From positions 153,553-217,552 of the forward strand of contig JAFDYT010000019.1 in NCBI GenBank assembly GCA_018266055.1: a stretch of 64,000 nt of DNA, in the 5' to 3' direction. The translations under genes were made by a program, and so were the position numbers. Shown in pieces: positions 5,563 to 63,262 of the stretch (the stretch's first letter is position 1; each line of letters begins with the position of its first letter). The notes under the pieces are model-generated. The model saw only the letters and a list, made by a program, of their open reading frames with translations. It was not told where the DNA came from and searched no databases. This DNA comes from Bacteroidota bacterium. Its GTDB lineage: Bacteria > Bacteroidota > Bacteroidia > Cytophagales > Cyclobacteriaceae.

Positions 5563-5581
5563 ACAAACAAAACTATACCTT

Positions 5582-6415
5582 ATGAAAACAAATGTTCACT
5601 CGAATGTAAATGCAACCAAATGGGTGTTGTACTTACTGGTTACTTTCCTTACACTGTTATTGGTTGGCAGAGTAAACGCGCAACGAAATTTAAGTGGTCC
5701 TTCTAATCTTTATATTGGGATTGAAGGAACACTAAGTACCCGCAACTTTCATATCAACAGCGACCTCGCGAATCTCAAAGGAATCAATACAACCCAGACT
5801 GGTCAAACTATTGGTATTGTAGGTGGAGGAAACCTCTTTATGTCTCGCGTATCTATCGGTTCGTTCCATGCTCAAAGCAACGATAACTCTCCGTTGAAGT
5901 TGAGCACCATTGAAGTGGGTACTAACTTTTTCCCTTTTCAGGCCATGAAAGAAAAACCAAGATTTTTTGAGCCATACCTTGTGGCTACAATAGATCAAAG
6001 TAGTGTAAAATCTACAGGAACATTTACGCCTGTAAATTTGGGTTCAAGCTCTTCTGGCACTGGATGTGGTTGCCCCGGAAATCCTGGTTCAGGGTCGAGC
6101 AGCGGAAGCGGTATTTTGCCTGATCCTGACCAACCTGGAGTGACTGCAACACCCGTGTCCGAAGCTTATTCGGGTAAGATAATTACACGGCGAGTAAACT
6201 TCGGTGTAGGTTTACGGTTCCATGCGGTTCAGGGAAATCACTTCTTAAATCTTTTCGCTGAGGTAAGGAAGGGCCTCTCAATAGGCACTGAGACAACTTC
6301 AGTAGCATTGGGTAACACATCCTCTTCTGGTCAGTTGGCTGTTAATTTTGGGTTAGCCATCGGCCTTACTAAATCGAGAAACGGAGCTTTCTTTATGCAT
6401 GCACGAAGAAAATAA
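5582..6415 (+). CDS. Outer-membrane beta-barrel-like protein with Gly/Ser/Cys loop
   Basis: 277 aa from the ATG at 5582 (an in-frame start at 5540 overlaps the previous gene and lacks a signal). Signal peptide: WVLYLLVTFLTLLLVGRVNAQ. The barrel-like part (IGIEGTLSTRNF, IGIVGGGNLF, LSTIEVGTNFFPF, EPYLVATI, RRVNFGVGLRFHAV, LNLFAEVRKGLSIG, LAVNFGLAIGL) is interrupted near residues 155-190 by a low-complexity loop with TGCGCPGNPG and SGSSSGSG, probably a surface loop. It resembles the barrel gene at 2970 in style. A strong hairpin follows the stop, closing this plus-strand run. Confidence 0.65.
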   Translation: MKTNVHSNVNATKWVLYLLVTFLTLLLVGRVNAQRNLSGPSNLYIGIEGTLSTRNFHINSDLANLKGINTTQTGQTIGIVGGGNLFMSRVSIGSFHAQSNDNSPLKLSTIEVGTNFFPFQAMKEKPRFFEPYLVATIDQSSVKSTGTFTPVNLGSSSSGTGCGCPGNPGSGSSSGSGILPDPDQPGVTATPVSEAYSGKIITRRVNFGVGLRFHAVQGNHFLNLFAEVRKGLSIGTETTSVALGNTSSSGQLAVNFGLAIGLTKSRNGAFFMHARRK

Positions 6416-33878: not shown

Positions 33879-34439
33879 ATGCCTACTATGAACGCGAAGG
33901 AATGGAGTAAGCGCATATTGATTTTTCTGATCGTATTCAGTTGCCAAACTTGCACTAACAAAAAGGCTGATTCAGAATCAAAGACAAAGGAAGCTTTTGT
34001 ATTTTTTTCAAGTACGGAAGGGAAAGATCGCTTTACTATTGAACTAATTGGCAACAAAGCGATTACAAGCAGTTTTAGAATAAGGATTTACAACCCCGCT
34101 GGAGCTAAAATTTACGAATACAATTGGGCTGCAGGCATTTCATTTATAATCGAAGAGAGCCGAATCAACGAGCGGAAAATGGTGAGAAAAAAAATCCTGT
34201 CATTTTATGATAACTTCTTTAACAAAAATAACTTCTGTAAAATCTCAGACATGAAAATTACCGGACTCTTTCAGTCAAGTGATTCGGCGGTAATGAAAAA
34301 TATATTAAAGGATTACAATAGTCAGGTCTTTATTATGGGGATCCAGGACTTTTGTCTTAGCTACTCACAAAAAAATCAGAAAGTATTGACGTTTAAAGCT
34401 ATGAGGAAAACGACGTTAAAAAAACACAGTCTCCTTTGA
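33879..34439 (+). CDS. Lipoprotein of a kinase-coupled pair, copy 1
   Basis: 186 aa from ATG 33879 (ATG 33888 also possible). Basic N terminus, hydrophobic stretch ILIFLIVFSC and a lipobox-like FSC or QTC. The mature domain (EAFVFFSSTEGKDRFTIELIG, SFRIRIYNPAGAKIYEYNW, SDMKITGLFQSSDS, GIQDFCLSYSQK) aligns throughout with the protein at 36437: both share FxF/NFS...KD.F..E..G, SD(M/L)KITGL and (V/I)QD(Y/F)C(L/I).(Y/F)S.K. No known family is recognised. Its TGA overlaps the following kinase ATG by one base (TGATG), so it is probably a periplasm-facing input protein for that kinase. Confidence 0.75.
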   Translation: MPTMNAKEWSKRILIFLIVFSCQTCTNKKADSESKTKEAFVFFSSTEGKDRFTIELIGNKAITSSFRIRIYNPAGAKIYEYNWAAGISFIIEESRINERKMVRKKILSFYDNFFNKNNFCKISDMKITGLFQSSDSAVMKNILKDYNSQVFIMGIQDFCLSYSQKNQKVLTFKAMRKTTLKKHSLL

Positions 34440-36313
34440 TGAAAAAACGGGTTAAAAACGTATTTCAAAGAATTATAAATCTGTGTTCAGAGAAAATAGT
34501 CTCCCTTCCGATACCATCCCTGTTATACAGTATCGCCGGTCTATCCATCGCAAACATAGCGTTTACCATAATTTCTAATTCCATTATTGACGATAGTTTG
34601 TTGCAAACGAAAATAGCAGAGCATGTACTATTTGAACTGGAGTATGGAAATGAAAGAACAATGCGGCATGTTGATGTTACGATGAGAGGTTTTGCTATTG
34701 TCCCAGACGAAAAGTACCTGTACAGAAGTCATGAATTCCTTGTAATCGATCAAGAGAATAACTTCAAAAGGCTGGACAGTTTGCTTAGACTGCAGGGTTA
34801 CAATAACAAGGAAGGCCAGTTATATCTCGAGCAATATAAAGCTGATTTAAGGAGGTTTGTTTCTTATCATGGCAGAATGATTTCTTATTTGAAACGTGGA
34901 GAGAGAGCCAGATTTGAAGAGGAATTCAAAAAAGATGTTGGAGCTAATTTTTGGCCACGTTTTTCAAACGCATTGTCAACAATTTCCGAATTTGAATACG
35001 ATATAACTGAAAACGCAACCAATAGATACAAGTTCTTCTCTTCCTTTATAATCTATTATCAGTTTTTCTCTTTCGTATTTATTTGCTTTGTCCTGGTTCT
35101 CGTGTTCAGAAGAATAATGATCAACAGATCGATTGACAAGTTTAACGAGAAGCAAAAGATGATCGAAGAGTTAAATAAAGCGAAGGAAAACATGTTATCT
35201 CTGATGAGCCATGAAATCCGAACGCCTCTCAATTCCATGATTGGTCTCTCCCACGTGTTGAGCAAACGAAATCCACGCCCTGACCAAATGGAAATCATCA
35301 ACACACTCGAAGCTTCCGGAGATCACTTAATTCACATTGTCAACGATATCCTCGATTATAATAAAATCCATGCCAAGGGCATAAATCTCGATGTAAGTCC
35401 TTTTGAGTTGTCCGTAATTCTGAAACAGATTCATTCGATGTTTATGCGAATGGCTGAGGATCGAAATTTGTATTTTACCGTACAGATAGATAGTGCAATA
35501 CCCATCAAGCTTTTAGGAGACCCTACCCGGCTGGTGCAAATATTAAGTAATCTGGTAAGTAATGGATTAAAGTTCACCTCAGCGGGAGGTGTCCGTGTAA
35601 ACGCCCAATTAATTAGCTCCGAAGGATCGACGGCCTTGGTGGAGTTTGTGGTGCAGGATACAGGCATAGGTATCAATGAGAGTGAAATGGAGAATATATT
35701 CCTTCCGTTTAGACAGGAAAAGAATATCCACGGAAAATTCGGAGGCACCGGACTTGGTCTGACTATTGTAAAAAGTATTGTTGAGCTAATGGGTGGAGAG
35801 ATAAACGTGAGCAGTTCAAAGAGCAAGGGCTCCACATTTAAGGCAAGTATTCCTTTCAAACTTCCATCCGGAAACACACAAGAACCGGCGAATGATTCGG
35901 AATCAGCCGGGATAGCTAATACCTTCTTATTGAAGAACAAGAAAGTGCTTTATGTGGAGGATGTTGAGTCAAATTGGTTTTTGGTAAACAACATATTGAC
36001 GGACTATTCGATAGCGTGTGAAAATGCCGAAAACGGGTCTAAGACATTAGACTATGTTTCTCGCACGAGATACGATTTAATACTGCTCGACGTACAACTA
36101 CCGGACATCAGTGGCTTCGATATAGCGCGGTCAATCCGAGGCAACCTTGACTCTAAGAACAAAACGACCCCGATTATCCTTTTCTCAGCTTTCACCACTT
36201 TGAGAGAAGAAGAACTTAAAGCGTGCGGAGCAAACGATTTTTTGGGCAAACCGTTCAGACAGGATACGTTAATCCAAAAAATGGCGGAGTTGATCAGAAA
36301 CGGAAATAAATAA
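34439..36313 (+). CDS. Hybrid histidine kinase, copy 1 (CHASE3-like sensor, HisKA, HATPase, REC)
   Basis: 624 aa. TM1 (~20-45) and TM2 (~200-225) flank a periplasmic helical domain with MRHVDVTMRGFAIVPDEKYLY, like a CHASE3 four-helix bundle. Phospho-acceptor H258 in MSHEIRTPLNSMIGLSH; ATPase with LVQILSNLVSNGLKFT, VQDTGIGINE and FGGTGLGLTIVK; C-terminal receiver with D551 (LILLDVQLPD). It is translationally coupled to the preceding lipoprotein. The receiver needs an HPt partner; the HPt-like gene at 38866 is the nearest candidate. Copy 2 at 36994 has the same architecture with its acceptor at the same residue number. Confidence 0.92.
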   Translation: MKKRVKNVFQRIINLCSEKIVSLPIPSLLYSIAGLSIANIAFTIISNSIIDDSLLQTKIAEHVLFELEYGNERTMRHVDVTMRGFAIVPDEKYLYRSHEFLVIDQENNFKRLDSLLRLQGYNNKEGQLYLEQYKADLRRFVSYHGRMISYLKRGERARFEEEFKKDVGANFWPRFSNALSTISEFEYDITENATNRYKFFSSFIIYYQFFSFVFICFVLVLVFRRIMINRSIDKFNEKQKMIEELNKAKENMLSLMSHEIRTPLNSMIGLSHVLSKRNPRPDQMEIINTLEASGDHLIHIVNDILDYNKIHAKGINLDVSPFELSVILKQIHSMFMRMAEDRNLYFTVQIDSAIPIKLLGDPTRLVQILSNLVSNGLKFTSAGGVRVNAQLISSEGSTALVEFVVQDTGIGINESEMENIFLPFRQEKNIHGKFGGTGLGLTIVKSIVELMGGEINVSSSKSKGSTFKASIPFKLPSGNTQEPANDSESAGIANTFLLKNKKVLYVEDVESNWFLVNNILTDYSIACENAENGSKTLDYVSRTRYDLILLDVQLPDISGFDIARSIRGNLDSKNKTTPIILFSAFTTLREEELKACGANDFLGKPFRQDTLIQKMAELIRNGNK

Positions 36314-36436
36314 TGTATCGCCAGTGCACCAAGTAGGATTTTTTTTGAACAAATATTTCATACCAAAAACAGTTTTATCTTCAGCTTTCAACTGTGTATA
36401 TTTAATAGCATTGTACCAGAAAACTTGAATTTCATC

Positions 36437-36994
36437 ATGTTTTTTAAAAAGATCTATCTGTATTTATTTCTGCTATTTTTTGTATCGCTTTGCCCCGGAT
36501 GCGAAAGTAAAAGAATCGGATCGAACGAAAGGCTGTATAAAAGGGAAGCTTACATTAATTTTTCAAATAAGCAGAGTAAGGATCATTTCGTGCTAGAATT
36601 TTTAGGCACAGAGGTATTATTCGGCAGCACAAGGCTAAGGATATTTTCATCCACCGGAGATACCCTATATAATTTCACATGGGAGGTAAGCAATTATTTT
36701 TGGAAAGAAGACAGCCGTTATCTGGACGAGTCACAACGGATTCAAAAATTTTGGAATATTTTCGATCACACCTTAGACGAATCAAGCTTTAGCCCCATGT
36801 CTGACCTAAAGATCACCGGGCTCATCTATTCTACTGACGAAGACTTTGCCAGGGATATTACGAGCGATTCAACGAATGTTGGCCTGCTCTTGAACGTGCA
36901 GGATTATTGCATTGCTTTCTCCAAAAAATACAATAAGGCGATTCGCCTTAGGGCTATCCGAAAGAGCATTTTAAAAAAATATAATCTCCTTTGA
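36437..36994 (+). CDS. Lipoprotein of a kinase-coupled pair, copy 2
   Basis: 185 aa from ATG 36437; a TTG at 36425 is also in frame. Signal with very hydrophobic YLYLFLLFFVSL and CPGC at the lipidation site. Same domain as the protein at 33879: YINFSNKQSKDHFVLEFLG, TRLRIFSSTGDTLYNFTW, SDLKITGLIYSTDE, LNVQDYCIAFSKKYNKAIRLRAIRKSILKK. TGATG overlap with the next kinase again implies coupling. It is divergent enough from copy 1 to suggest a different ligand or an old duplication. Confidence 0.75.
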   Translation: MFFKKIYLYLFLLFFVSLCPGCESKRIGSNERLYKREAYINFSNKQSKDHFVLEFLGTEVLFGSTRLRIFSSTGDTLYNFTWEVSNYFWKEDSRYLDESQRIQKFWNIFDHTLDESSFSPMSDLKITGLIYSTDEDFARDITSDSTNVGLLLNVQDYCIAFSKKYNKAIRLRAIRKSILKKYNLL

Positions 36995-38859
36995 TGGACT
37001 TGCACGCACCCACCATACGCAAAGGAATAACCAGCAAGTTCCTTGATTATCTAGACAAAATACCAATAAATGTTTTATTGTACAGCATCATACTTCTCAT
37101 CTTAATCAATGTTATTGGTTCCATTATTTCTAGAGTTATCATGGAAAATAGCATCAAGCAAACCCGAATTGCAGAACATGCTGTTTTTGAAATTGATTAT
37201 GCTCACGATTGGACGGTACGCCACGTTGATGTCTCCATGAGGGGCTTTGCCATAATTCAGGACGAAAGCTACTTGTACCGAAGCAACGAATTCATTCGTA
37301 TTGACCTGGAGAATAATTTCAAGAGATTGGATAGCCTGCTGCAGCTTCAGGGATACAACGACTCTGAAGGTCTAAAGGCAATAGAAAAATATAAGGCCAC
37401 AATGAGAAACTTTGTTATTTATCACGGAGAAATGATTAAGCTTCTCAAAGCGGGCAAACGAGAGGAGTTTTTAAAGGAGTTCCGAAAAGATATAGGTGCG
37501 TATTTCTGGCCGATCTATTCTGCTGCGATGGAGGCGGTGTACAAGTTTGAATCGAATCTTACAAGATCTGCCAATGAAAGATATCGCTTTTTTTCGGCTG
37601 GGGTAGTTTACTTGCAGGTTTTTACTTTTCTTATCAGTTCTTCGGTTGTCTTACTCGTCTTTCAAAAATTAGAAAAGAAGAAGGTAATGGAGAAACTTCT
37701 TGAAGAGCGAAAACTTTTCGACGAAAGGAATAAAATAAAGGAGACTATGCTTTCGATGATGAGCCATGAAATCCGCACGCCTCTTAATTCTATGATTGGT
37801 CTTACCCATGTATTGGGCAAGCGAGATCCTCGGCCCGACCAAAAGGAAATCATCAATACACTTGAAGCTTCCGGAGATCACTTAATTCACATCGTCAACG
37901 ATATTCTCGATTACAATAAAATACAGGCCAACCGGCTAGGGCTAGAGTTATCGCCTTTTAATCTTTCGGATATTCTTCGACAGATTCATTCCATGTTTTT
38001 CAGAATGGCCGATGAAAAAAATATCTCTTTTTCGGTTCAGGTAGATAGCGGTATGCCTTTGAATATTACCGGCGACAGTACCAGACTTATTCAAATCCTC
38101 AGTAATCTGATCGGCAATGCCATGAAATTTACCTCTTCCGGCAGCGTGAATCTGCACGTACGTCCAATTCAAATCACCAATCATTCGGTAAAAGCTGAAT
38201 TTGTAGTTGCAGATACCGGCATAGGTATCTCGTCGGATATCATTGACACCATCTTTCAACCATTCTCTCAGGAAAAAGATATTCACCGAAAATACGGCGG
38301 CACTGGACTGGGGCTTGTCATAGTAAAAAATTTAGTGGAATTGATGGAAGGAAAAGTAACCGTGAATAGTGTTTATGGAAAGGGGGCCACATTTACGGCA
38401 ACTATTCCTTTTGAAATTAGTCAGGATAATTCAGGCAACATAATCACATCTGAAAATCTAAAAGATGCCAAACACTCGCTGAGAGGAAAAAAAATTCTTT
38501 ACATTGAAGATGTAGAGTCCAATCGTTTCCTTATCAACAGCCTGTTTGAAGATTACTCGGTCGAATGCCACAATGCCGAAAATGCAAAAGAAGCATTGGA
38601 TTGCATTCAGAAAACAAAATTTGATTTGATTTTATTAGACATACAGTTACCTGACTTGAATGGATTCAAAGTGGCCAACTCCATCCGAACGGACCAGCAA
38701 TCCAAAAACAAAGAGACTCCTATCATCCTCTTCTCTGCTTTCACCAACATACTTGAAAGTGACGTCAGGGAATGTCGTGCCAATGATTTTATTAACAAGC
38801 CATTTAAGCCGGAAGAATTGATCTCCAAAATGCAAAAAGCAATTCTGAAAGACATCTGA
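36994..38859 (+). CDS. Hybrid histidine kinase, copy 2
   Basis: 621 aa with the same layout as copy 1: TM1, CHASE3-like periplasmic bundle (VRHVDVSMRGFAIIQDESYLY), TM2 (~200-222), HisKA with H258 (MSHEIRTPLNSMIGLTH), ATPase (LIQILSNLIGNAMKFT, VADTGIGISS, YGGTGLGLVIVK) and receiver with D549 (LILLDIQLPDLNG). The kinase core is much more conserved between copies than the sensor. The start is the ATG overlapping the lipoprotein stop. It converges on the HPt-like gene, 6 bases away. Confidence 0.92.
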   Translation: MDLHAPTIRKGITSKFLDYLDKIPINVLLYSIILLILINVIGSIISRVIMENSIKQTRIAEHAVFEIDYAHDWTVRHVDVSMRGFAIIQDESYLYRSNEFIRIDLENNFKRLDSLLQLQGYNDSEGLKAIEKYKATMRNFVIYHGEMIKLLKAGKREEFLKEFRKDIGAYFWPIYSAAMEAVYKFESNLTRSANERYRFFSAGVVYLQVFTFLISSSVVLLVFQKLEKKKVMEKLLEERKLFDERNKIKETMLSMMSHEIRTPLNSMIGLTHVLGKRDPRPDQKEIINTLEASGDHLIHIVNDILDYNKIQANRLGLELSPFNLSDILRQIHSMFFRMADEKNISFSVQVDSGMPLNITGDSTRLIQILSNLIGNAMKFTSSGSVNLHVRPIQITNHSVKAEFVVADTGIGISSDIIDTIFQPFSQEKDIHRKYGGTGLGLVIVKNLVELMEGKVTVNSVYGKGATFTATIPFEISQDNSGNIITSENLKDAKHSLRGKKILYIEDVESNRFLINSLFEDYSVECHNAENAKEALDCIQKTKFDLILLDIQLPDLNGFKVANSIRTDQQSKNKETPIILFSAFTNILESDVRECRANDFINKPFKPEELISKMQKAILKDI

Positions 38860-53700: not shown

Positions 53701-54244
53701 TTATAGGGTAGGTTAAAACAAGTTGGCGCGCGTTTGCAACGCGTGCCTTATCGTACTTCAAGAAACCATTTAAGTTTCAATAAATAATACGTACCCCTAT
53801 TAGCAAGCGTTATAAACACGCGCTAGCTTAGGGTATAGAAACCGAATCGCTATCGTCAATATTTTAAGCACCAGCGGTGCGTCATGTGTATAGCAAATAA
53901 AGGAGAAAACAACCAAGCTCCATCGGAGCGGCATCAATCACCTTCAAAAATATATTCCGTTTTAAAATCAATTTCATATCGCTTCAATAGTTCACAAGTT
54001 GGCGCGCGTTTGCAACGCGTGCCTTATCGTACTTCAAGAAACCATTTAAGTTTCAATAAATAATACGTACCCCTATTAGCACGCGTTATAAACGCGCGCT
54101 AGCTTAGTGCATCCCTTTTAAGCACCAGCGGTGCGCCATGTTTATAGAAACCGAATTGCTATCGTCAATATTTTTTTAGCACCAGCGGTGCGTCATGTGT
54201 ATAGCAAATAAAGGAGAAAACAACCAAGCTCCATCGGAGCGGCA

Positions 54245-54703
54245 TCAATCACCTTCAAAAATATATTCTGGTTTGAAATCAATTTCATATCGCTTCAATA
54301 ATTCAACATATTCATCCCTAAACGTCCTTGTTTTATGATGTTCCTCCTGAGTTCGGATATAATTCATAATAGCATCCAATTGCGAGTGCCCCAGCGTGAA
54401 CGCTCCAAACCCCGTCTGCCATTCAAATTTACCTGCCACCCATTTCTTTTCGTTGATGAACCTTGACGAATTTGCTTTTATGTCTCGCACTATGTCCGAC
54501 AGCGTGGTATCTGGTCTTAAACCCACTAACAGGTGAATATGATCGGGCATCCCATTGATGGCGAGGAGCTTTTGGTTCTTGTTGGTGACAATTCCGGTGA
54601 TGTATTTATACAGTTCTTCTTTCCACCGATGACTAATCAGGTTTGCCCTGCCTTTTACGGCAAATACGACGTGGAAATACAATTGGGTGAAGGTATTGGC
54701 CAT
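54245..54703 (-). CDS. REP-associated tyrosine transposase (RAYT, IS200-like HUH/Y1)
   Basis: 152 aa, full length for the family. HUH pair H55-x-H57 in PDHIHLLVGL and the catalytic tyrosine Y115 in IMNYIRTQEEHH. The N terminus FTQLYFHVVFAVKGR and WQTGFGAFTLGHS match Bacteroidota TnpA-REP proteins. It is embedded in GC-rich REP hairpins that it presumably cleaves and spreads; the hairpin GCTCC-TAC-GGAGC lies 9 bases upstream of its start and GCTCC-ATC-GGAGC just after its stop. It is intact, so it may still be active. Confidence 0.9.
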   Translation of the reverse strand: MANTFTQLYFHVVFAVKGRANLISHRWKEELYKYITGIVTNKNQKLLAINGMPDHIHLLVGLRPDTTLSDIVRDIKANSSRFINEKKWVAGKFEWQTGFGAFTLGHSQLDAIMNYIRTQEEHHKTRTFRDEYVELLKRYEIDFKPEYIFEGD

Positions 54704-54993
54704 GTTATTCCGCTCCTACGGAGCTAGTTGTGTTTCTATTTTCGTTGCTATACACATGACGCTGCGATGCAGCTTCTGTAAGCAACCCTCAAAATACCTT
54801 TTTTCTAAAATACTTTGCTGGATGGCTTCGGCTTGGCAAGTATTATTGTCGCTCATTTGTCATCCCTTTTAAGCACCAACGGTGCGCCATGTGTATAGAA
54901 ACCGAATTGTTATCGTCAATATTTTAAGCACCAGCGGTGCGTCATGTGTATAGCAAACAAAGGAGAAACAACCAGCTCCATCGGAGCGGCATC

Positions 54994-55131
54994 CATCACC
55001 TTCAAAAATATATTCTGGTTTGAAATCAATTTCATATCGCTTCAATAATTTCACCGATGACTAATCAGGTTTGCCCTGCCTTTTACGGCAAATACGACGT
55101 GAAAATACAATTGGGTGAAGGTATTGGCCAT
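54994..55131 (-). pseudogene. Internally deleted RAYT copy
   Basis: 55050-55131 repeats the first ~80 bases of the transposase gene (start at the CAT before 55131) and 54994-55050 repeats its last ~55 bases. About 320 bases of the middle, including the HUH and tyrosine motifs, are missing. The stop codon of the 3' part is also changed (TCA to TCC on the plus strand). Flanking GCTCC-TAC-GGAGC and GCTGC-GAT-GCAGC hairpins are kept, so this is a MITE-like non-autonomous derivative. Confidence 0.8.
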
Positions 55132-55723
55132 GCTATTCCGCTCCTACGGAGCTGGTTGTGTTTTTATTTTCGTTGCTATACACATGACGCTGCGATGCAG
55201 CTTCTGTAAGCAACCCTCAAAATACCTTTTTTTCTAAAATACTTTGCTGGAGGGCTTCAGCTTGGTAAGAACTATTGTCGCTCATTTGTCATCCCTTTTA
55301 AGCACCAACGGTGCGCCATGTGTATAGCAAATAAGAGAGAAACAACCAAGCTCCATCGGAGCGGCATCAATCAACCTCAAAAATATATTCTGTTTTAAAA
55401 TCAATTTCATATCGCTTCAATAGTTCACAAGTTGGCGCGCGTTTGCAACGCGTGCCTTACCGTACTTCAAAAAACCATTTAAGTTTCAATAAATAATACG
55501 TACACATATTAGCACGCGTTATAAACGCGCTAGCTTAGGTGTATAGAAACCGAATTGTTATCGTCCATATTTTAAGCACCAGCGGTGCGCCATGTGTATA
55601 GCAAATAAGGGAGAAAACAACCAAGCTCCATCGGAGCGGCATCAATCACCTTCAAAAATATATTCTGGTTTGAAATCAATTTCATATCGCTTCAATAATT
55701 CAACATATTCATCCAATCCCGCC

Positions 55724-56376: not shown

Positions 56377-56709
56377 TTAGGATGGCCCTAAGATTCCTAA
56401 ACTCTCCAGTACTATGTAGACGACTAACCCACATAGTCCAATTACTAGGTTTGAAATAAATTTCGCGTTGTCGTTGTCCCACAGCTTCAATCTCAAAGTT
56501 TGAATCATTAGAATTGCGAACGGAATAAGAATAGGAAGATGTCTGACGGGAAAGAGTTGATAAACTCTGTCCGCTTTTTCCAGTCCAGCCTCGCTTTCCC
56601 CAAAGATTTCAAAAACCAAAATGAAAGCTGTTAGATATCTGATTATCCAAAGTCCAACGATAAGAATAGTCGAGAGAATTAAAGTCCTTATTATCACAGA
56701 GGTTTTCAT
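56377..56709 (-). CDS. Small membrane protein in repeat-bounded array
   Basis: 110 aa with three hydrophobic helices (LILSTILIVGLWIIRYLTAF, LPILIPFAILMIQTL, NLVIGLCGLVVYIVLESLGI). No family recognised. The ATG at 56709 is preceded by a sequence (GATGTTGGCTGCAATCTGC on the coding strand) partly shared with other array junctions. It is paired with the downstream gene at 55885. Confidence 0.6.
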   Translation of the reverse strand: MKTSVIIRTLILSTILIVGLWIIRYLTAFILVFEIFGESEAGLEKADRVYQLFPVRHLPILIPFAILMIQTLRLKLWDNDNAKFISNLVIGLCGLVVYIVLESLGILGPS

Positions 56710-56768
56710 TTGTTAGCAGATTGCAGCCAACATCTCGCTATCCGCAATATTGCCCATAACTTTATTGC

Positions 56769-56902
56769 TTCACCAAGTTAGTATTTTGAAACAGCATTAG
56801 CCAACGGACTTATTAATTTGCCAAACCTGAAATGATGTTTAGAAGAAGGATTGGTGGTCGGGAGACCACCAATAACAAAAGGAGACCACCAATAACAAGT
56901 GG
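56769..56902 (-). repeat. Array repeat R1
   Basis: About 134 bases. On the coding strand of the array it begins just after the stop of the gene at 56907 with two direct copies of TTGTTATTGGTGGTCTCC; the second forms a hairpin ATTGGTGGTC-TCCC-GACCACCAAT. A conserved ~85-base block follows (contains AAACATCATTTCAGG and CCGTTGGCTAATGC). Near-identical copies lie at 57621, 58410 and 58953. Confidence 0.85.
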
Positions 56903-56906
56903 TGCC

Positions 56907-57557
56907 CTACTTAATTCTTATTTCTTGAGTCCATTTCACTTTGTCCCTTTCGTCATTAGGTATATCTAAAGTTAAGTGAAGTATTTTGTCACCCTTGTCG
57001 TAGGTGTCGATGATATCATATTTCGCTAGTTCAAATCCGTAATACTCATTTGTTAAAATTCTTTTCTCTATAAAGGGTAAATAGCTATAGTTGCGGTAAA
57101 TTTCAATTCGAACCCCTCTGTTATCAGAAATTGCATTACCAAGTCCGGTTTCTTTATAAATCAATCCAGATTCAATTTCCTTCTCTACTCTTGGCTCAAA
57201 CTCAGCTGTTACAAATCCTATTCCCAACGCTCCAATTGTCCCCGAGAGGTAACCTAATCCAAAAACTAATGTCATGAGTATATACCCAAACACTTTTATA
57301 AATTTTGATTTGATTCTCACGATTCGCCAGAGGAAGAAACAGATTCCTAAATAATATAACGTCAGTAGTGTCCAGTCTATCTCAAGTGAAGTTGTTGAAA
57401 TATCAACAGCCAAGAAAATTGACGTTAAAGACAAGATTGTCAGTATTGCTAAACTTATTGCCTTTATTCTATTATTACGCTGTCCCCATCTGCTTATATA
57501 ATAAGTCAAGATTGGATATGTCCACAAAGCAATCAATGTTATTATCCAAGTAATCAT
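56907..57557 (-). CDS. Four-TM membrane protein in repeat-bounded array
   Basis: 216 aa. Four N-terminal TM helices (~1-22, ~32-52, ~60-80, ~88-115) and a soluble C-terminal domain of ~100 residues rich in beta strands (GVRIEIYRNYSYLPFIEKRIL, YDIIDTYDKGDKILHLTLDIP). No family recognised. It is a single-gene unit bounded by R1 downstream and R2 upstream. Confidence 0.6.
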   Translation of the reverse strand: MITWIITLIALWTYPILTYYISRWGQRNNRIKAISLAILTILSLTSIFLAVDISTTSLEIDWTLLTLYYLGICFFLWRIVRIKSKFIKVFGYILMTLVFGLGYLSGTIGALGIGFVTAEFEPRVEKEIESGLIYKETGLGNAISDNRGVRIEIYRNYSYLPFIEKRILTNEYYGFELAKYDIIDTYDKGDKILHLTLDIPNDERDKVKWTQEIRIK

Positions 57558-57620
57558 GTCTTATTAAGGTATTGCAGCTCACGGCTACATGCTCATATTG
57601 CATATAATCATCTACTGCCC

Positions 57621-57752
57621 CTCACCAAGTTAGTATTTTGAAACAGTATTAGCCAACGGACTTACCGGGTTGCAAAACCTGAAATGATGCTTTTAAGAAG
57701 GATTGGTGGTCGGGAGACCACCAATAACAAAAGGAGACAAACAATAACAAGT
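57621..57752 (-). repeat. Array repeat R2
   Basis: Same element as R1. The first of its two TTGTTATTG units is changed (TTTGTCTCC in place of GTGGTCTCC), while the hairpin unit ATTGGTGGTC-TCCC-GACCACCAAT is intact. It starts within a few bases of the stop of the gene at 57756. Confidence 0.85.
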
Positions 57753-57755
57753 GGG

Positions 57756-58391
57756 TCATTTCTTTATTACAGGGCCTGAGTACATTAACTCAATGGCAAA
57801 CCTGTCGCCCGGTAGTTTCTGTACTCTCTCTATTGTCAAAATGTTTTTTATAGTCGTATTGCCATATTGAATCCATTCCTTCAATTGTAATTGGTTCTCA
57901 CCTTTTTCCTTTAAGAAATTCTCTGTCGCTGATGTACCACCTAAAATATCGATAGGCTCATCAAGTCCATTTTCAATTTCTTTCATTAATTGGATTCCCT
58001 TAACAACCCAATAATTAATGTCTGTCGTATCTGCTTTAAATCTGCTAGTTTCAAATCTAAAAGTAAAAATATAGTATTCACAGTCCTCATGTGAACTAGT
58101 AATAGTCAAGTCGTCCCCGTTTTTAAGTTCAACAGTTTCTTTCCACTCACTTTTATCAAATGTCGCGTTGGGGTAAACTGATTTTTTAATTACTGATTTT
58201 GCAGTGCAGGTGTCCTCGTAGCTTTTGTAGGTAATGGTGTCAAGCTTGTTGTATTCCTTTTCAGGTGCCTGGTTGTCCCCAGTCTGAGTTGAGTCGGCCT
58301 TTACGTTGTCAGCTTGTTTGTTATTCGTCGATTGGGAGCAACTAATTAATGAAACCAATGTCAAAAGTGCCACGATTTGTTTTGGAGTCAT
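57756..58391 (-). CDS. Lipoprotein in repeat-bounded array
   Basis: 211 aa. Lipoprotein signal (QIVALLTLVSLISC, lipobox LISC) followed by a polar linker (SQSTNNKQADNVKADSTQ). The folded part has beta strands (VELKNGDDLTITSSHEDCEYYIFTF, WIQYGNTTIKNILTIERVQ, RFAIELMYSGPVI). No known family. Bounded by R2 downstream and R3 upstream. Confidence 0.65.
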   Translation of the reverse strand: MTPKQIVALLTLVSLISCSQSTNNKQADNVKADSTQTGDNQAPEKEYNKLDTITYKSYEDTCTAKSVIKKSVYPNATFDKSEWKETVELKNGDDLTITSSHEDCEYYIFTFRFETSRFKADTTDINYWVVKGIQLMKEIENGLDEPIDILGGTSATENFLKEKGENQLQLKEWIQYGNTTIKNILTIERVQKLPGDRFAIELMYSGPVIKK

Positions 58392-58409
58392 ATCATTAAT
58401 GCGGTTGCC

Positions 58410-58519
58410 TTCACCAAGTTAGTATTTTGAAACAGCATTAGCCAACGGACTTACCATGTTGCCAAACCTGAAATGATGTTTAGAAGAAGGATTGTTGGTC
58501 GGAGACCAACAATAACAAG
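58410..58519 (-). repeat. Array repeat R3 (short form)
   Basis: Same element with a single TTGTTATTG unit. Its hairpin is ATTGTTGGTC-TCC-GACCAACAAT: compared with R1, R2 and R4, the fifth base of the left arm and its partner in the right arm have both changed (G-C to T-A), so pairing is kept. About 50 bases separate it from the stop of the gene at 58572. Confidence 0.85.
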
Positions 58520-58571
58520 GGGAACGAAAGCTTGTCAGCGAATATTAAACTGTCCGCGTGAGTAACATTAC

Positions 58572-58847
58572 TTACTTCACTTCTTCTATTTCAATTATTT
58601 CTCCCTTCTCATTCGTTTTTACATTATACGTACTTTGTTTGGAAGGCCTTGTCAATAAAACACTCGCTATTATTAATATACCTATCCAGATTCCTAGTCC
58701 CAAAAAATATCGAACTGTCCCTTTTGTTGAATTACGTTCATCAATACGAACCATTTGGTTGTCAAATGGTCCCTTTAGTCCCTTAAACAACCAAATTGCA
58801 AATGCTCCAGTTGCTGTAAAAAGAAAATTTGAAATGGGATTTATCAT
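58572..58847 (-). CDS. Small membrane protein in repeat-bounded array
   Basis: 91 aa with two hydrophobic segments (NFLFTATGAFAIWLFKGL and YFLGLGIWIGILIIASVLL) separated by a basic/acidic loop. No family recognised. Bounded by R3 and R4. Confidence 0.5.
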   Translation of the reverse strand: MINPISNFLFTATGAFAIWLFKGLKGPFDNQMVRIDERNSTKGTVRYFLGLGIWIGILIIASVLLTRPSKQSTYNVKTNEKGEIIEIEEVK

Positions 58848-58952
58848 ATTCTTTAAAAACTAAATCATTGTCGTCTATATGTCACTGTCTACGGAGCTGG
58901 CGAATGGCCTACAACATCTCGCTATACGCAATATTGCCTATAACTTTCTTGC

Positions 58953-59083
58953 CTTACCAAGTTAGTATTTTGAAACAGCATTAGCCAACGGACTTACCAG
59001 TTAGCCAAACATGAAACGATGTTTAGAAGAAGGATTGGTGGTCGGGAGACCACCAATAACAGAAGGAGACCAACAATAACATG
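58953..59083 (-). repeat. Array repeat R4
   Basis: Same element as R1, with two TTGTTATTG units and the ATTGGTGGTC-TCCC-GACCACCAAT hairpin. It follows the stop of the three-TM gene of the graspetide operon. A further block upstream of the next gene (ACATCTCGCTATACGCAATATTGCC on the plus strand region 58912-58940) is shared with the R1 junction. Confidence 0.85.
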
Positions 59084-59097
59084 GGGTAGTCTAACAA

Positions 59098-59973
59098 TTA
59101 TGGATTAGCGCCCTGCTTTTTCTTATTTGTCGATGAGTGCATTTTCTTTATGATTTCATTAAGAGTATCTATTTGGGTTCGTTTTTGTTCTTCTATTGTT
59201 TCAATCTTATTCAGTACATCCATAACATCTTTTAGTCCTTCATTATTCAAGATCAAGCTTTTTTTAATTGACTCCGAAAATGTAGAATCAGAAAATGAAA
59301 TATTTACCTTATCTATTTCCTTTTTTGATCGATTAGTGCCGGAGAAAAATACTGCAAAAGCAATCACAGTGGTGAATATTCCAAGGGATAGTATATGACT
59401 TGATGCCTTGAGAATGTCGGTAGTATTGTCAGCAACTGTTTGATTAAAGACTGTGCAGTTAACAATTTCTGCTGTAATTTCAGATTTACTTTTCGGCTTT
59501 ATAGCTTCTGGATCATCAAAATCAATAATTGTATCTATAAAAATTGCCTTCTGAACTTTTACGCTAATGCATCTCAGAGATACTATCATCGCTATTACAA
59601 GTAGGCTTATAGATACTATCACGATCACATTTATGGTACCTTTTAACTCAGTACCCAAAAGAAAAAAATGAATCGCAGAGACCGCGGAAATGTACGTTAG
59701 CAGTTTGAAAGCCTTCTCTTCAAGATGTTGTATCCTCTCCTTGGATTCCTTATACATTTCCATCGAAGTATTGAAAAATCTATCGTCTGGATCCGTTTCA
59801 GGAAAATAGTCTTTTATTATTTTTTTCTCGGCCTCTTTAGGTTGTTTGTGAGGAAGAAGTCCATGCCAAACAATATTTATTGAGTTCACAAAGCTCTTTA
59901 ATACTTTCTTTATGCTAGTCTCCCTTTCTACCAAAGGACCAATATGTTTTCCTAGTTCACTCATAAAATTCAT
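59098..59973 (-). CDS. Three-TM membrane protein with C-terminal coiled coil, graspetide operon
   Basis: 291 aa. A soluble N-terminal ~75 residues are followed by a charged helix leading into TM1 (KAFKLLTYISAVSAIHFFLL), TM2 (TINVIVIVSISLLVIAMIVSL) and, after a ~75-residue cytoplasmic segment, TM3 (ILSLGIFTTVIAFAVFFSG). The tail (GLKDVMDVLNKIETIEEQKRTQIDTL) is coiled coil. The layout resembles small pore-type proteins of conflict systems (SLATT-like), but I cannot assign it firmly. Its ATG at 59973 lies 17 bases inside the ATP-grasp gene, so its role is tied to the ligase: export, immunity or effector. Confidence 0.65.
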   Translation of the reverse strand: MNFMSELGKHIGPLVERETSIKKVLKSFVNSINIVWHGLLPHKQPKEAEKKIIKDYFPETDPDDRFFNTSMEMYKESKERIQHLEEKAFKLLTYISAVSAIHFFLLGTELKGTINVIVIVSISLLVIAMIVSLRCISVKVQKAIFIDTIIDFDDPEAIKPKSKSEITAEIVNCTVFNQTVADNTTDILKASSHILSLGIFTTVIAFAVFFSGTNRSKKEIDKVNISFSDSTFSESIKKSLILNNEGLKDVMDVLNKIETIEEQKRTQIDTLNEIIKKMHSSTNKKKQGANP

Positions 59974-60907
59974 TTATCAAGGCATCTGAAATATTTAAAC
60001 CCAATTCCTTTTCAAGCCAAACCCACTCACCAACCGGGTTCACTTCAAGAAACACATAATCATCATTTGGAGTTTGAATTAAGTCAATTGCAGAATAGAC
60101 AAGGTCGAATGCATGATTGAGCTTAAGCAGGCATTGATTTACGTTTTCAGGCAAATTTATTACAGAGTATTTCTTTTGCACATCCGGCTTTCTCCAATCA
60201 ACTTCTTCACTCTCGACCTTATCAATTCTGACCACAAATACTTTATCTTTTACTATCGTTACTCTAATGTCTGCCTTATTTGAAATCATTTCTTGCAAGA
60301 AAACAGGTGTTTCGAATGTTTCATTTTGTTCATAGCTATCAAAATAGTTCTGGTCAATTACAGATGTGTAAATTGAATAGGTCACTTCGTCCAATACCTG
60401 AAGTCCATTCGAAACTGGTTTAATAATTGTCTTCGAATTAGCATGAAGAAATTCTTTCGCTCTTAAGGGAGAATTCGTAATTATAGATTTTGGTGTGGTA
60501 AATCCAATTTGGTTGGCAATTTTTAATTGAAACAACTTCCTCTCGGCAATGTGGGTAGCGAACATTGGATTAATCCATTTGGCTTTGTGACCTAATGACA
60601 AATAGAGACCCTCAAGAAAGTGCTTTCTTTCATTATTTAAGTATGATGAATCAGGATCATACTTGTCATTGTAAAATTTAGTTGGTGTTCTTTTAAAAAT
60701 TATGGTACGAACTGAATTCAAGTCATAGACGGATGTCCCGATGTTGCAAACATATTCTGTGTTAGGGCTAATCTGGAATTCAATTCTGTCGAGATCGTCT
60801 GAATTTAATCTTAAATAATTAGTTGATCGCGTCCTTAATTTAGAAATCAAATATTCCACACTGATATCGTCCCTATTGGTGACGAATAAGGTTTCAATCT
60901 TTATCAT
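59957..60907 (-). CDS. MvdC/MvdD-like ATP-grasp peptide ligase (graspetide synthetase)
   Basis: 316 aa, RimK-like ATP-grasp enzyme. An N-terminal pre-ATP-grasp domain (~1-100, with VRTIIFKRTPTKFYND) is followed by the ATP-grasp core: SKTIIKPVSNGLQ (ATP lysine), FLQEMISNKADIRVTIVKDKVFVVRID, AIDLIQTPNDDYVFLEVNPVGEWVWLE. E288 and N290 are the predicted Mg ligands. The ending F-L-E-V-N-P-x-G-x-W-x-W-L-E is typical of microviridin-type maturases. It should form side-chain ester or amide links between Thr/Ser/Lys and Asp/Glu of the precursor peptides encoded just upstream. Its ATG overlaps the stop of the nearest precursor (ATGA). Confidence 0.88.
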   Translation of the reverse strand: MIKIETLFVTNRDDISVEYLISKLRTRSTNYLRLNSDDLDRIEFQISPNTEYVCNIGTSVYDLNSVRTIIFKRTPTKFYNDKYDPDSSYLNNERKHFLEGLYLSLGHKAKWINPMFATHIAERKLFQLKIANQIGFTTPKSIITNSPLRAKEFLHANSKTIIKPVSNGLQVLDEVTYSIYTSVIDQNYFDSYEQNETFETPVFLQEMISNKADIRVTIVKDKVFVVRIDKVESEEVDWRKPDVQKKYSVINLPENVNQCLLKLNHAFDLVYSAIDLIQTPNDDYVFLEVNPVGEWVWLEKELGLNISDALINEFYE

Positions 60908-61095
60908 GATGATTCCGACATATCCGCTGCCTCTCTTGTTTTGGTGATTGTGGTGGCAGCAAGGGGGACTTCACTCATTATTGTCTTTACATTTTCTTCA
61001 TGAAAACCTTTATTAATAGAATGTTTTTTCAGGTTTGTCTCTGAAGGAGTTGATTCGGATTTTGTTCTGAAGTTAAGGATCGGATTCTTTGTCAT
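60904..61095 (-). CDS. Graspetide precursor peptide A (63 aa)
   Basis: Short hydrophilic peptide. Leader starts MTKNPILNFRTKSES; the middle KKHSINKGFHEENVKTI is shared with peptide B; C terminus SEVPLAATTITKTREAADMSESS. The C-terminal Thr/Ser-rich stretch followed by REAADMSE supplies donors (T, S) and acceptors (E, D, E) for ring formation, so I take this end as the core. The NPILNFR segment may play the role that PFFARFL plays in microviridin leaders. Stop overlaps the ligase start by 4 bases. Confidence 0.8.
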   Translation of the reverse strand: MTKNPILNFRTKSESTPSETNLKKHSINKGFHEENVKTIMSEVPLAATTITKTREAADMSESS

Positions 61096-61100
61096 AATTG

Positions 61101-61295
61101 TTATGAGTTTTCTGACATGTCAGCTGCTTCCCTTGACCTAGTGATTAGAGTAGCAGTTGATCGGTGTTCACTTGTGATAGATTTTACATTTTCTTCATGA
61201 AAGCCTTTGTCTATCGAATGTCTCTTCAAGTCAATAGGCGAGAGATTAGAGTCGGACTTTATTCTGAAATTGAGGATCGGATTCTTTGGCTTCAT
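61101..61295 (-). CDS. Graspetide precursor peptide B (64 aa)
   Basis: From ATG 61295 (an in-frame start at 61319 would lie inside the preceding gene). Closest to peptide A: KPKNPILNFRIKSDS, LKRHSIDKGFHEENVKSI, then SEHRSTATLITRSREAADMSENS. Differences cluster between the conserved SE and the REAADMSE end, as expected for diversified cores. It begins 1 base after the stop of peptide C and ends 5 bases before peptide A, so it is clearly part of one operon. Confidence 0.8.
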   Translation of the reverse strand: MKPKNPILNFRIKSDSNLSPIDLKRHSIDKGFHEENVKSITSEHRSTATLITRSREAADMSENS

Positions 61296-61296
61296 G

Positions 61297-61512
61297 TTAC
61301 GAGTTTTCTGAACTATCAACTGCTTCTCTTGATTCTGTTATTCGTGTAGCTAACGAATGAATTGTAGACTTTTCCGATTCTATTTTCATTTTTCCAGCAG
61401 CATTAATCCTACCTCCAATTTTTATATCATACTGAGAATCGTCACATGGCTTCGTGGCCTCTGATGATTTTCTAAAATCAAGTATTGGACTTTGCTTCTT
61501 TGGCATGGACAT
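61297..61512 (-). CDS. Graspetide precursor peptide C (71 aa)
   Basis: From ATG 61512 (or 61506). The most divergent member: MPKKQSPILDFRKSSEA at the N terminus, a different middle (CDDSQYDIKIGGRINAAGKM) and the C terminus IESEKSTIHSLATRITESREAVDSSENS. Conservation is confined to the PIL(N/D)FR leader element, an SE pair and the T(K/R)..REA(A/V)D.SE.S end, which marks those as the functional parts. It is the first precursor gene after the HEPN gene, with its own candidate promoter. Confidence 0.78.
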   Translation of the reverse strand: MSMPKKQSPILDFRKSSEATKPCDDSQYDIKIGGRINAAGKMKIESEKSTIHSLATRITESREAVDSSENS

Positions 61513-61534
61513 TTGAAATTTATTGTGGAGTATA

Positions 61535-61542
61535 CAAATATA
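61535..61542 (-). promoter_or_regulatory. Candidate -7 box (TATATTTG) for the precursor/ligase operon
   Basis: A perfect TAnnTTTG box on the minus strand, 22-30 bases before the start of peptide C, within the ~100-base gap after the HEPN gene. No clear -33 box is visible. If used, the precursors can be expressed independently of the ParA-HEPN pair. Confidence 0.45.
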
Positions 61543-61613: not shown

Positions 61614-62219
61614 CTATTTTACTTTCTTGTCAATAGCTCTGACCAATTTTACCAAGAATTCCCTCACATCTTTTACGGTTTTCTTGTCGATTAGTGTCTT
61701 TCCATTTGTTATAGGGTTAATATCGGCTTCATGAGCTATTTTATTTCGCCTATGTACAATAAGCCCCAGTTCTTTGACAATGTCTTCTTTATCTATCTTT
61801 AAGTCCTTGGATATTGCTTTCCAAATAGATTTTACAGAAATAAGTGACAAAGCTCTTTCAACACTACTTGGAGCCTGATAAGAATGCTTCGAAGTAATTT
61901 TTCTAATTTCATTGTCAAGTAGCTGTACTCGAACAACCTTGTCAGAGGTCGATAGCAGAAGATTGACTGACTTTAGAGAAATATGAAATCTATCAAATTC
62001 TGAATTCGTTTTGTTTTTTCCTTCAAATATTTCCAGCATCCCATCTCTAACCAAGTCATGAACATAATAGTCGAAAGCGCTTACCAATAGAACGTATTCG
62101 GCACGTAGAATTTCGGAAATATCCATTGCGGGAACTTGCTGCTCGAAATAAGAATGAATGCCATCTATTGTGTCGATACTCTCAATATTCTTTAAGAATT
62201 GTTTAAGAGGTGCCTTCAT
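61614..62219 (-). CDS. HEPN domain protein (RiboL-PSP-HEPN-like, RX4H)
   Basis: 201 aa all-helical. The early helix ILRAEYVLLVSAFDYYVHDLVRDG and the late motif LIVHRRNKIAHEADIN, with R158-x4-H163, match HEPN proteins of the RiboL-PSP group; R-x4-6-H is the catalytic pair of HEPN RNases. It is therefore a candidate RNase toxin or RNA-sensing component. Its ATG overlaps the ParA-like gene's stop (ATGA), so the two are a fixed pair, and the graspetide genes follow on the same strand. Confidence 0.82.
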   Translation of the reverse strand: MKAPLKQFLKNIESIDTIDGIHSYFEQQVPAMDISEILRAEYVLLVSAFDYYVHDLVRDGMLEIFEGKNKTNSEFDRFHISLKSVNLLLSTSDKVVRVQLLDNEIRKITSKHSYQAPSSVERALSLISVKSIWKAISKDLKIDKEDIVKELGLIVHRRNKIAHEADINPITNGKTLIDKKTVKDVREFLVKLVRAIDKKVK

Positions 62220-63262
62220 GAAGTTAATGTAATTATTTTTTCTGCCATGTTCTCAAAAAGAATTTTAAACCAATTTAAAGTTCTTTTTTGGCCTGCTCCA
62301 GAGAGTTTAGACCGTATTGGGTCTAGTTCGTAAATTGGTAAACCTAATCGGTTAGAGATAGCTATCAATTTATTGAAATTTGATATTTCTCCTATACAAT
62401 ACTTATCAATGGGTCTTTGACTTTTTAGGTTCCTACTAAGTTTTTCTGATGAATCATATTTACTATCCTGCAATATCATTCCCTCTTTTGCCAGACTGGG
62501 GACTAAGTCAGATTCAATACAACCGGCAATTTTATTCATCATCATTTCAAATGAATATGAGGGTCTTCCTTCACTTAGATTAAAATCATTTATTGTATAA
62601 CCAAGGAATTTGGGAGTGCTGTTTGGTAGTGGATATTCAGCGTCCGCAAATATTGGTCTTGCTGACTTTGCCCATTTCTCCCAACTAGGCAAAACTCTCG
62701 ATAGTGATTTTACCGCCATGTATGAAAACAAGTCAGGAGACGTTGGTACAATAAAGTAATCTGATGAGACAAATAAGTCCTGATTTATGGCACTTAAGCT
62801 TGGGTTAAGGTCGATAAGTACGTACTCTGCATTATATTTCTTTGCAGTTTTTTCAATCAAGTAATTAAATGCGCCCGGAAGGTTCTTAAGCGTCCCTAAT
62901 GCATTAGATAGTTGAAATGAGACACCAAGAGAAACTTCGTATTCAGTTAAGTCAAGATGTCCAGGCAATAAAAAGAGATAAGGATTTCTTCTGACTGTAA
63001 TACAACTTACTGATTCAATCAACTTTGGTTTTGCTTTGAATGCTGGTTCTAACGCATCCTTTATGTTATTAGTGTCACCTGCCTCAAAGTGCCTTTCATA
63101 TTCATTTTGCCCAATTGAATATAATGTCAAATTACATTGTGAATCTGCGTCTACTAATAAAGTTCTCTTTCCTTTTCGAGCCAACATCCAGCCGAGATTG
63201 AATGCTGTCGTAGTTTTACTTACGCCGCCCTTGTGATTGAATACAGCAATTTTTTTTATCAT
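62216..63262 (-). CDS. ParA-like ATPase paired with HEPN protein
   Basis: 348 aa SIMIBI ATPase. Deviant Walker A KGGVSKTT at residues 11-18 with signature lysine K11, VDADSQCNLT (switch I region) and YVLIDLNPSLSAINQ (Walker B/switch II). The C-terminal ~150 residues carry DFNLSEGRPSYSFEMMMNKI and a tail unlike plasmid ParA. No parB or parS partner is seen; instead it overlaps a HEPN gene, a pairing seen in accessory islands. It may control or sense for the HEPN protein rather than segregate DNA. Confidence 0.85.
   Translation of the reverse strand: MIKKIAVFNHKGGVSKTTTAFNLGWMLARKGKRTLLVDADSQCNLTLYSIGQNEYERHFEAGDTNNIKDALEPAFKAKPKLIESVSCITVRRNPYLFLLPGHLDLTEYEVSLGVSFQLSNALGTLKNLPGAFNYLIEKTAKKYNAEYVLIDLNPSLSAINQDLFVSSDYFIVPTSPDLFSYMAVKSLSRVLPSWEKWAKSARPIFADAEYPLPNSTPKFLGYTINDFNLSEGRPSYSFEMMMNKIAGCIESDLVPSLAKEGMILQDSKYDSSEKLSRNLKSQRPIDKYCIGEISNFNKLIAISNRLGLPIYELDPIRSKLSGAGQKRTLNWFKILFENMAEKIITLTS

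Follow-up and report, generated by a model that had tools for sequence, protein, structure and literature searches.

We analysed a stretch of 64,000 nucleotides (nt) from a Bacteroidota bacterium of the family Cyclobacteriaceae (contig JAFDYT010000019.1, positions 153,553 to 217,552; hereafter the window). On its minus strand, at 59098-61512, lies an operon of three tandem precursor peptide genes, an ATP-grasp ligase gene and a gene for a protein with three transmembrane (TM) helices, in that order. Precursor 1 (61297..61512, 71 amino acids (aa)) has the leader motif PILDFR and a core, ..ATRITESREAVDSSENS, of the 'ITE/DSSEN' type. Precursor 2 (61101..61295, 64 aa) and precursor 3 (60904..61095, 63 aa) both have PILNFR in the leader and cores of the 'ITK/R, DM' type, ..TATLITRSREAADMSENS and ..ATTITKTREAADMSESS respectively. 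The ligase P0004 (59957..60907, 316 aa) resembles ATP-grasp graspetide synthetases and carries FLEVNPVGEWVWLE close to its C terminus; the TM protein P0005 (59098..59973, 291 aa) has hydrophobic stretches at ~88-132 (two helices) and 194-212. In gene order, the genes are 1 nt and 5 nt apart and then overlap by 4 nt (precursor and ligase) and by 17 nt (ligase and TM gene). An earlier note on this DNA had described just this arrangement, three short open reading frames (ORFs) with PIL(N/D)FR and a common C terminus that adjoin or overlap a ligase, which in turn overlaps a three-TM protein, and our coordinates agree with it. It had also seen no transporter or protease, and we likewise saw neither an exporter nor a leader protease among the five genes; nor do these include an acetyltransferase, a peptidase-transporter or a SPASM protein. 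Judged by its sequence, this is a compact operon of the graspetide type, and it seems to represent a new and divergent lineage within a kind already known.

To find close relatives, we ran a pattern-based search over 84,980 species, each represented by one genome. It yielded two loci, L002 from an uncultured Aquimarina (ligase 59% identical to P0004) and L003 from an Arcicella metagenome-assembled genome (58%), each with two precursors of the same kind immediately 5' of the ligase. The precursor association in homologous loci, on which the earlier note had made its reading depend, is thus present. L002 also has the TM gene, its product 42% identical to P0005; the L003 contig stops just past the ligase. 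No second copy of the system was found elsewhere in the window's own genome, which has one ligase match.

The precursor motifs are specific. Among 307 window ORFs of 40-120 aa, PIL.FR or the C-terminal core pattern occurs only in the three precursors, and among 5875 ORFs of 40-130 aa from the loci collected by then, only in the precursors of L002, L003 and copies of the window locus. Because the pattern is restricted to these ORFs, the sharing of motifs is not a matter of chance. All seven distinct precursors of the three loci keep P5, I6, L7, F9 and R10 together with T51, R54, E55, D58 and E61 (P0001 numbering), while their middle region is variable. The leader reads PIL[NDSC]F in all seven, in keeping with the graspetide-type motif Phhx(1,2)h as defined in excerpts of PMC8939145. 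The core common to the three loci, [TS]xxTx[TS]RExxDx[ST]Ex[ST], holds the Thr/Ser donors and Asp/Glu acceptors expected of a graspetide precursor, with T51, E55, D58 and E61 invariant. None of the window's three precursors has a Pfam or NCBIfam match at E<=1, and a GG motif occurs in one of the seven.

By eye, two precursor types recur in all three close loci, an 'ITE(T/S)RE..DSSEN' type first and an 'IT(K/R)..RE..DM(S/T)E' type second. The window carries the second type twice, and at the DNA level its precursors 2 and 3 are repeats of each other (70%). When identities are simply counted over the final 18 residues, the types are not cleanly separated, and we offer the division, read from the sequences, as a suggestion.

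P0004 belongs to the MvdC/MvdD/SAV_5884 superfamily of ligases. Its best NCBIfam models are TIGR04187 (3e-57), MvdC (2.1e-53), MvdD (1.4e-45) and grasp-with-SPASM (7e-31), with RimK at 6e-15; all scores lie under the curated cutoffs, the best reaching 194 of 350 bits. Hidden Markov model comparison therefore bears out the earlier assignment to the graspetide MvdC/MvdD kind. Its matches in the PDB include microviridin-type ligases, the best being 7m4s, 'AMdnB protein' (3.9e-30). K163, D275, DWR237-239, E288 and N290 are conserved in the ligase alignments, which suggests that P0004 is an active enzyme. On this evidence P0004 is very probably a graspetide ligase with the three peptides as its substrates.

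Known graspetide systems resemble the window operon in part. It shares with thuringinin and plesiocin a single MvdC/D-like ligase, a Phhx(1,2)h-type leader and Thr donors followed by Glu/Asp acceptors, but it has several short single-core precursors where those systems have one multi-core precursor. The window core, TxxTx[TS]RExxDxxE, differs from the thuringinin core, TxxTxxxExxDxD, a motif that our literature search did not find. With microviridins it has in common the ligase superfamily and a leader motif of the same general kind; we rejected identity with them, as the operon has no PFFARFL leader and no microviridin Pfam match, and it has a single ligase. The grasp-with-SPASM systems of Bacteroidota likewise use an ATP-grasp ligase, for which P0004 matches the model. 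However, the window operon has no SPASM gene among its five, and grasp-with-SPASM-like loci (recognised by eye among L103-L119) occupy a far ligase branch with no matching TM protein directly downstream; this identity was rejected as well.

More distant ligases came from genomes sampled at the level of family (295), phylum (395) and class (395), the samples overlapping; from plasmids, where 83 and 92 records had a ligase match and we read 15 loci; and from two phage records. Besides the window, 55 loci were read, holding 61 ligases that are 21-59% identical to P0004. A ligase was scored TM-positive when the protein directly behind it matched a pooled TM profile at an E limit of 1e-4. Such a protein lies within 150 bp downstream of 21 of the 61 ligases; 39 are without one and one is at a contig edge. 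Outside the close trio, the TM-positive ligases are 27-35% identical to P0004. Their loci were found in members of the window's phylum, on Pseudomonadota plasmids and in a Leptospira phage. The first TM proteins had entered the profile by position and topology, judged by eye, and 15 of the 21 are members of the profile that scores them; the six outside it (L066, L075, L125, L128, L129 and L135, of which L066 is a near copy of profile member L068) match at 6e-6 to 4e-29.

In the ligase tree, all TM-positive rows fall on one side of a single branch (Shimodaira-Hasegawa-like approximate likelihood-ratio test, SH-aLRT, 85; 84/78 in a more careful tree). On the careful tree the presence or absence of the TM protein needs 1 change, versus a shuffled mean of ~18; L071 and L102, which have no matching TM protein, adjoin the TM-positive side. 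The window, L002 and L003 ligases form a 100/100 branch of length ~1.2 inside that side. The first tree groups this trio with L063 and Leptospira phage LE1 (support 80), and the careful tree leaves its exact place unsettled. The first tree omits L110, L134 and L136; the careful tree further omits L133, L077, L132, L118, L118_1, L124, L125 and L066 and adds L144-L147, with L145 set TM-positive by hand (profile E 2.6e-4, above the limit) and L003 uncounted because of its contig end. We conclude that a TM protein remotely resembling PycTM goes with one branch of the graspetide ligases. The earlier proposal of a distinct class is supported in the sense of a distinct lineage, with its long, fully supported branch and with window precursors that match no Pfam or NCBIfam model; this lineage is not isolated, as it sits in a larger TM-linked set.

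A scan of viral contigs with a narrow ligase alignment confirmed 0 of 85. Of 15 IMG/VR loci, five have a TM protein of the family (L145 being borderline), nine are without and L153 ends at the ligase; among the ten that are not TM-positive, nine resemble actinobacterial clusters by eye, seven of them with a methyltransferase-like gene downstream, and L155 is of another kind. The L143 ligase is the same as that of phage LE1, and the L144 ligase is 61% identical to it. The LE1 cassette (L128) resembles the window in its overlapping genes for precursor, ligase (35% identity) and TM protein. It differs in having one precursor with three repeats, two TKT....E.DD and one TKT....E.DE.

Precursors in the wider group take several forms. 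Many relatives have one longer multi-core precursor, for example ITKTNIQQESDDD (L120), TKTFTQRESDDEE (L128) and METETFTRTSGEPADSDND (L100), in contrast to the window, where single-core precursor genes are multiplied. Others are short, of the MH(I/V)L...ETGEDQKG kind (L123, L135), and in some loci, such as L122, no precursor was evident by reading. A sub-group of precursors that begin in the H(I/V)L manner and end on ETGED(Q/I/N)KG (L123, L124, L125, L135, L066, L068, L075 and L076) is found both in the window's phylum and, farther afield, on Rhizobiales plasmids; its operons carry the same TM family. The window core TITKTREAADMSESS has an ITKT start and later acidic residues in common with the wider-group cores (ITKT.E..D..E in P0001 versus ITKT....E.DD in the relatives). 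The earlier note had found the core unlike those of microviridin, plesiocin and thuringinin; it does resemble the cores of these relatives.

P0005 overlaps the ligase gene and matches the pooled profile, and so belongs to the graspetide-associated three-TM family as defined here. All profile-profile E-values that follow are single-comparison values. The TM sub-families are linked by profile comparison, some strongly (7.5e-13, 8.9e-8 and 1.5e-7) and some weakly (4.6e-3). The window TM pair (P0005 and the L002 protein) gave 4e-4 to 0.09 against four other sub-families singly. Against a profile pooled from 18 relatives, with the window excluded, its E-value was 3.8e-7 (178 columns). P0005 alone matched the pooled profile at 1.9e-5, while 25 unrelated TM ORFs, some of them duplicates, scored 0.05 or worse. 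For PycTM, represented by 12 proteins taken from loci with PF18967, the same pooled profile gave 1.3e-6, aligned across 140 columns with TM1-TM3 in register. Its controls gave 4.2e-4 (DUF2721), 0.0033 (reversed DUF2721), 0.32 (DUF202) and 0.05 (reversed PycTM); SLATT_5, tried as a comparison family, returned 1 weak match in 98 genomes. By eye and by profile alignment, the likeness to PycTM comprises a soluble helix with a KA-like motif, a TM1-TM2 hairpin, a loop, a K..L..A helix and TM3. PADLOC PycTM models match 4 of 14 TM proteins: L121 (9.8e-5), L065 (0.004), L002 (0.038) and P0005 (0.36). P0005 itself has no match in Pfam, PycTM (PF18967) included; the likeness runs only via the pooled family profile. 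Plasmid searches with P0005 and with the L065 TM protein gave no match. In the viral contig of L145, the TM protein behind the graspetide ligase (4966-5616) has a PycTM-like ESADNRIN motif and matches the family profile at only 2.6e-4.

How far the PycTM likeness can be trusted depends on a control. PycTM matches itself reversed at 3.5e-5 (26 columns), which shows that such E-values can arise from hydrophobic stretches alone; the full-length TM1-TM3 register is, on the alignments, the better argument. We slightly lowered our estimate because of this reversed-sequence control and now regard homology between the TM family and PycTM as reasonably likely.

A second line of evidence is the genes around the relatives. 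We compared neighbours with PADLOC, using 20 hand-picked proteins a side. At E<=1e-50, defence matches were found in 4 of 8 TM-positive loci of the window's phylum (5 of 20 proteins): a type III restriction enzyme at L063 (2.6e-74), PD-T7-5 (2.9e-67) and PDC-S15 (9.6e-118) at L064, PDC-S31 at L065 (6.6e-102) and PD-Lambda-3_B at L066 (4.1e-85). L068, L070, L076 and L100 had no neighbour match at this limit. L100 does adjoin a Bpu10I-type restriction enzyme (Pfam 4.7e-66), uncounted as the controls had no Pfam scan. The TM-negative graspetide loci gave 0 of 14 loci and 0 of 20 proteins, the best value being 3.6e-34 (L117), for a Fisher p of 0.0096 by locus and 0.024 by protein. On plasmids, 4 of 8 TM-positive loci have annotated defence genes nearby, a count from annotation only with no control set. 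L123 has SIR2 and an endonuclease/UvrD pair that may be Gabija-like; L124 has SIR2, a PIN nuclease and QatABCD; L125 has AbiEi/AbiEii; and L135 has an ABC-three-component system, AbiEi/AbiEii and RES. By annotation, L120 and L127 have no clear defence genes within 16 kb, L121 has none within 3.5 kb, and L122 has only an AbiEi-like and a RelE-like gene nearby. Our searches of open-licence literature turned up no paper that describes graspetides in an anti-phage role; ribosomally synthesised and post-translationally modified peptides in general have been linked with defence genes by co-expression, according to excerpts of PMC11118758.

We propose that the operon belongs to a divergent lineage of graspetides and that its peptides cooperate with a PycTM-like membrane protein, probably in conflict of the anti-phage type. 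The ligase would bind the PILNFR leader motif and, driven by ATP, close side-chain ester (or amide) rings from the conserved Thr/Ser donors to the core Glu, Asp and Glu, with as many as three rings probable in each peptide. The operon would yield two or more distinct peptides, among them one of the 'ITE..DSSEN' and one of the 'IT(K/R)..DM(S/T)E' type. Because the operon has no visible exporter or leader protease, we expect the peptides to act inside the cell, together with the translationally coupled TM protein as a remote PycTM-like membrane effector. This pair may serve an intracellular conflict, most likely anti-phage defence in which the peptide sets off or holds back damage to the membrane. 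That the TM protein is a functional partner is, on this evidence, likely to a high degree; an anti-phage or abortive role is tentative and somewhat doubtful; the reading as a whole comes close to an even balance without quite reaching it. PycTM is activated by cyclic pyrimidines to form a pore that breaks membrane integrity, as stated in the excerpted text of PMC11224242. By analogy with Pycsar and CBASS, a ring-closed ribosomal peptide could take the cyclic nucleotide's place in immune signalling, opening a PycTM-like effector or holding it shut until infection, and the window's lineage would then use two cyclised peptides as a two-part signal; we consider this rather unlikely.

A number of observations weigh against the proposal. 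The unity of the TM-positive ligases has moderate branch support. Ten of the 14 TM proteins scanned have no PADLOC PycTM match, and Pfam PycTM (PF18967) matched none of nine (P0005 and 8 others). Compared alone with PycTM, the window TM pair gave 0.0052, inseparable from chance, L063 gave 0.057 and the ETGED sub-family gave 0.66, no match; the self-reversal match of PycTM belongs here too. Other families are matched weakly, by L076 (a phage holin family, 0.0049) and by L068 (Mmc1_C, 0.0028; SLATT_5, 0.23). A phylum search with the window TM pair retrieved, out of 395 genomes, just the one that the window comes from, although some of the others hold TM proteins that we assign to the family. No Pycsar cyclase PycC is present among the operon's five genes or the adjoining HEPN and ParA-like genes, and the partner here, unlike in Pycsar, is a peptide ligase and not a pyrimidine cyclase. 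In the neighbour comparison, the proteins were chosen by hand from larger ORFs, with the neighbours of L002 and L075 left out; the L066 and L068 ligases are near-identical. At E<=1e-30 the contrast becomes 4 of 8 versus 1 of 14 (p 0.039), and adding the window gives 4 of 9. Around the window operon, PADLOC was run on the two genes upstream, neither of which is a recognised defence system: the HEPN gene has no PADLOC match, and the ParA-like ATPase has a generic one over 38 residues only. Mobile genes in any case gather in islands regardless of function. Characterised graspetides are all protease inhibitors, according to the excerpts of PMC8939145. The TM association as such is partly known already: in thuringinin loci, most of them without a known transporter, Makarova et al. 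2022 describe uncharacterised membrane proteins ('cluster 18'), for which they guess a role in transport (PMC8939145).

The same membrane proteins lend themselves to a different account, in which the graspetide is exported as a protease inhibitor or bacteriocin, the TM protein is its dedicated exporter and a host protease removes the leader. The transport guessed for 'cluster 18' (PMC8939145, as excerpted) speaks for export, as does the lack of any other transporter in the window operon. Against it, the protein has three TM helices but neither an ATPase nor a match to any known transporter family, a GG motif occurs in only one of the seven precursors, and export predicts neither PycTM similarity nor defence neighbours. 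We consider export unlikely. The peptide could instead be an inter-bacterial toxin with the TM protein conferring immunity, since peptide, ligase and TM genes are coupled and co-occur on plasmids and in phage; yet no export route is seen, and we know of no reason for an immunity protein to resemble PycTM, which makes this improbable. Slightly less probable still is that the TM protein is a biosynthetic partner which the ligase requires, as rosaritide requires MirC, or which anchors the ligase at the membrane. Partner-dependent graspetide synthetases exist (PMC13097080, in the excerpted part) and TM presence follows the ligase branch with one change, but MirC consists of an N-domain and a SurA-like domain and is not a TM protein (same source), and the PycTM similarity would be left unexplained. 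The earlier note had held that a ligase from a RimK-type clade without associated precursors would speak against graspetides, and RimK is the only Pfam name above its cutoff for P0004; a RimK-type housekeeping ligase of unrelated function beside accidental small ORFs is nevertheless scarcely credible and was rejected on the NCBIfam scores, where graspetide models lead by ~40 orders of magnitude in E-value, and the precursors are conserved across three loci.

If the proposed partnership of peptide and PycTM-like protein is right, graspetides, described as protease inhibitors in excerpts of PMC8939145, would gain a directly testable job in operons of defence islands, plasmids and phages, and modified peptides would be added to the molecules with which infected bacteria may bring about their own death. 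For enzymology, the window's branch offers a core of new sequence and, possibly, an arrangement with two peptides. Carter et al. 2026 extended the graspetide groups to 43, several of them with unmatched partner proteins, as given in excerpts of PMC13097080. An uncharacterised membrane protein reported for thuringinin loci (PMC8939145, as excerpted) is a further likeness to the window.

The GC content of the operon is 35.0% versus 42.7% for the window, and because of this low value it was probably acquired horizontally. A promoter-like TATATTTG (61535..61542, minus strand) lies 30 nt 5' of the first precursor ATG and fits the Bacteroidota -7 motif, TAnnTTTG; the whole window has 45 such matches on both strands. 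Upstream on the same strand, at 61614-63262, a RiboL-PSP-type HEPN gene (Pfam 2.9e-13) overlaps a ParA-like ATPase gene by 4 nt. We rejected this pair as a component of the system: by eye it is absent from the L002 and L003 ORF lists, and the promoter-like site lies between.

On the downstream side, a 176-nt repeat occurs in four copies (56728-56903, 57580-57755, 58369-58544 and 58912-59087) within 56377-59098. Each copy lies 3' of a single minus-strand gene or of the graspetide operon, an arrangement like a gene-cassette array, and contains a 24-nt palindrome. The window's own genome has 26 matches, these four included, mostly partial and spread over 6 contigs. Compared with the attC consensus, the repeats show no canonical core except GTTAGAC beside the operon. 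Farther away, at 54000-55714, several direct and inverted repeat families surround an ORF (54245-54703) that by eye resembles a transposase associated with repetitive extragenic palindromic elements. At 33879-38859, a gene pair is present in two tandem copies, paralogous by eye, each a 186/189-aa ORF followed by a hybrid-sensor-kinase-like gene of 625/622 aa.

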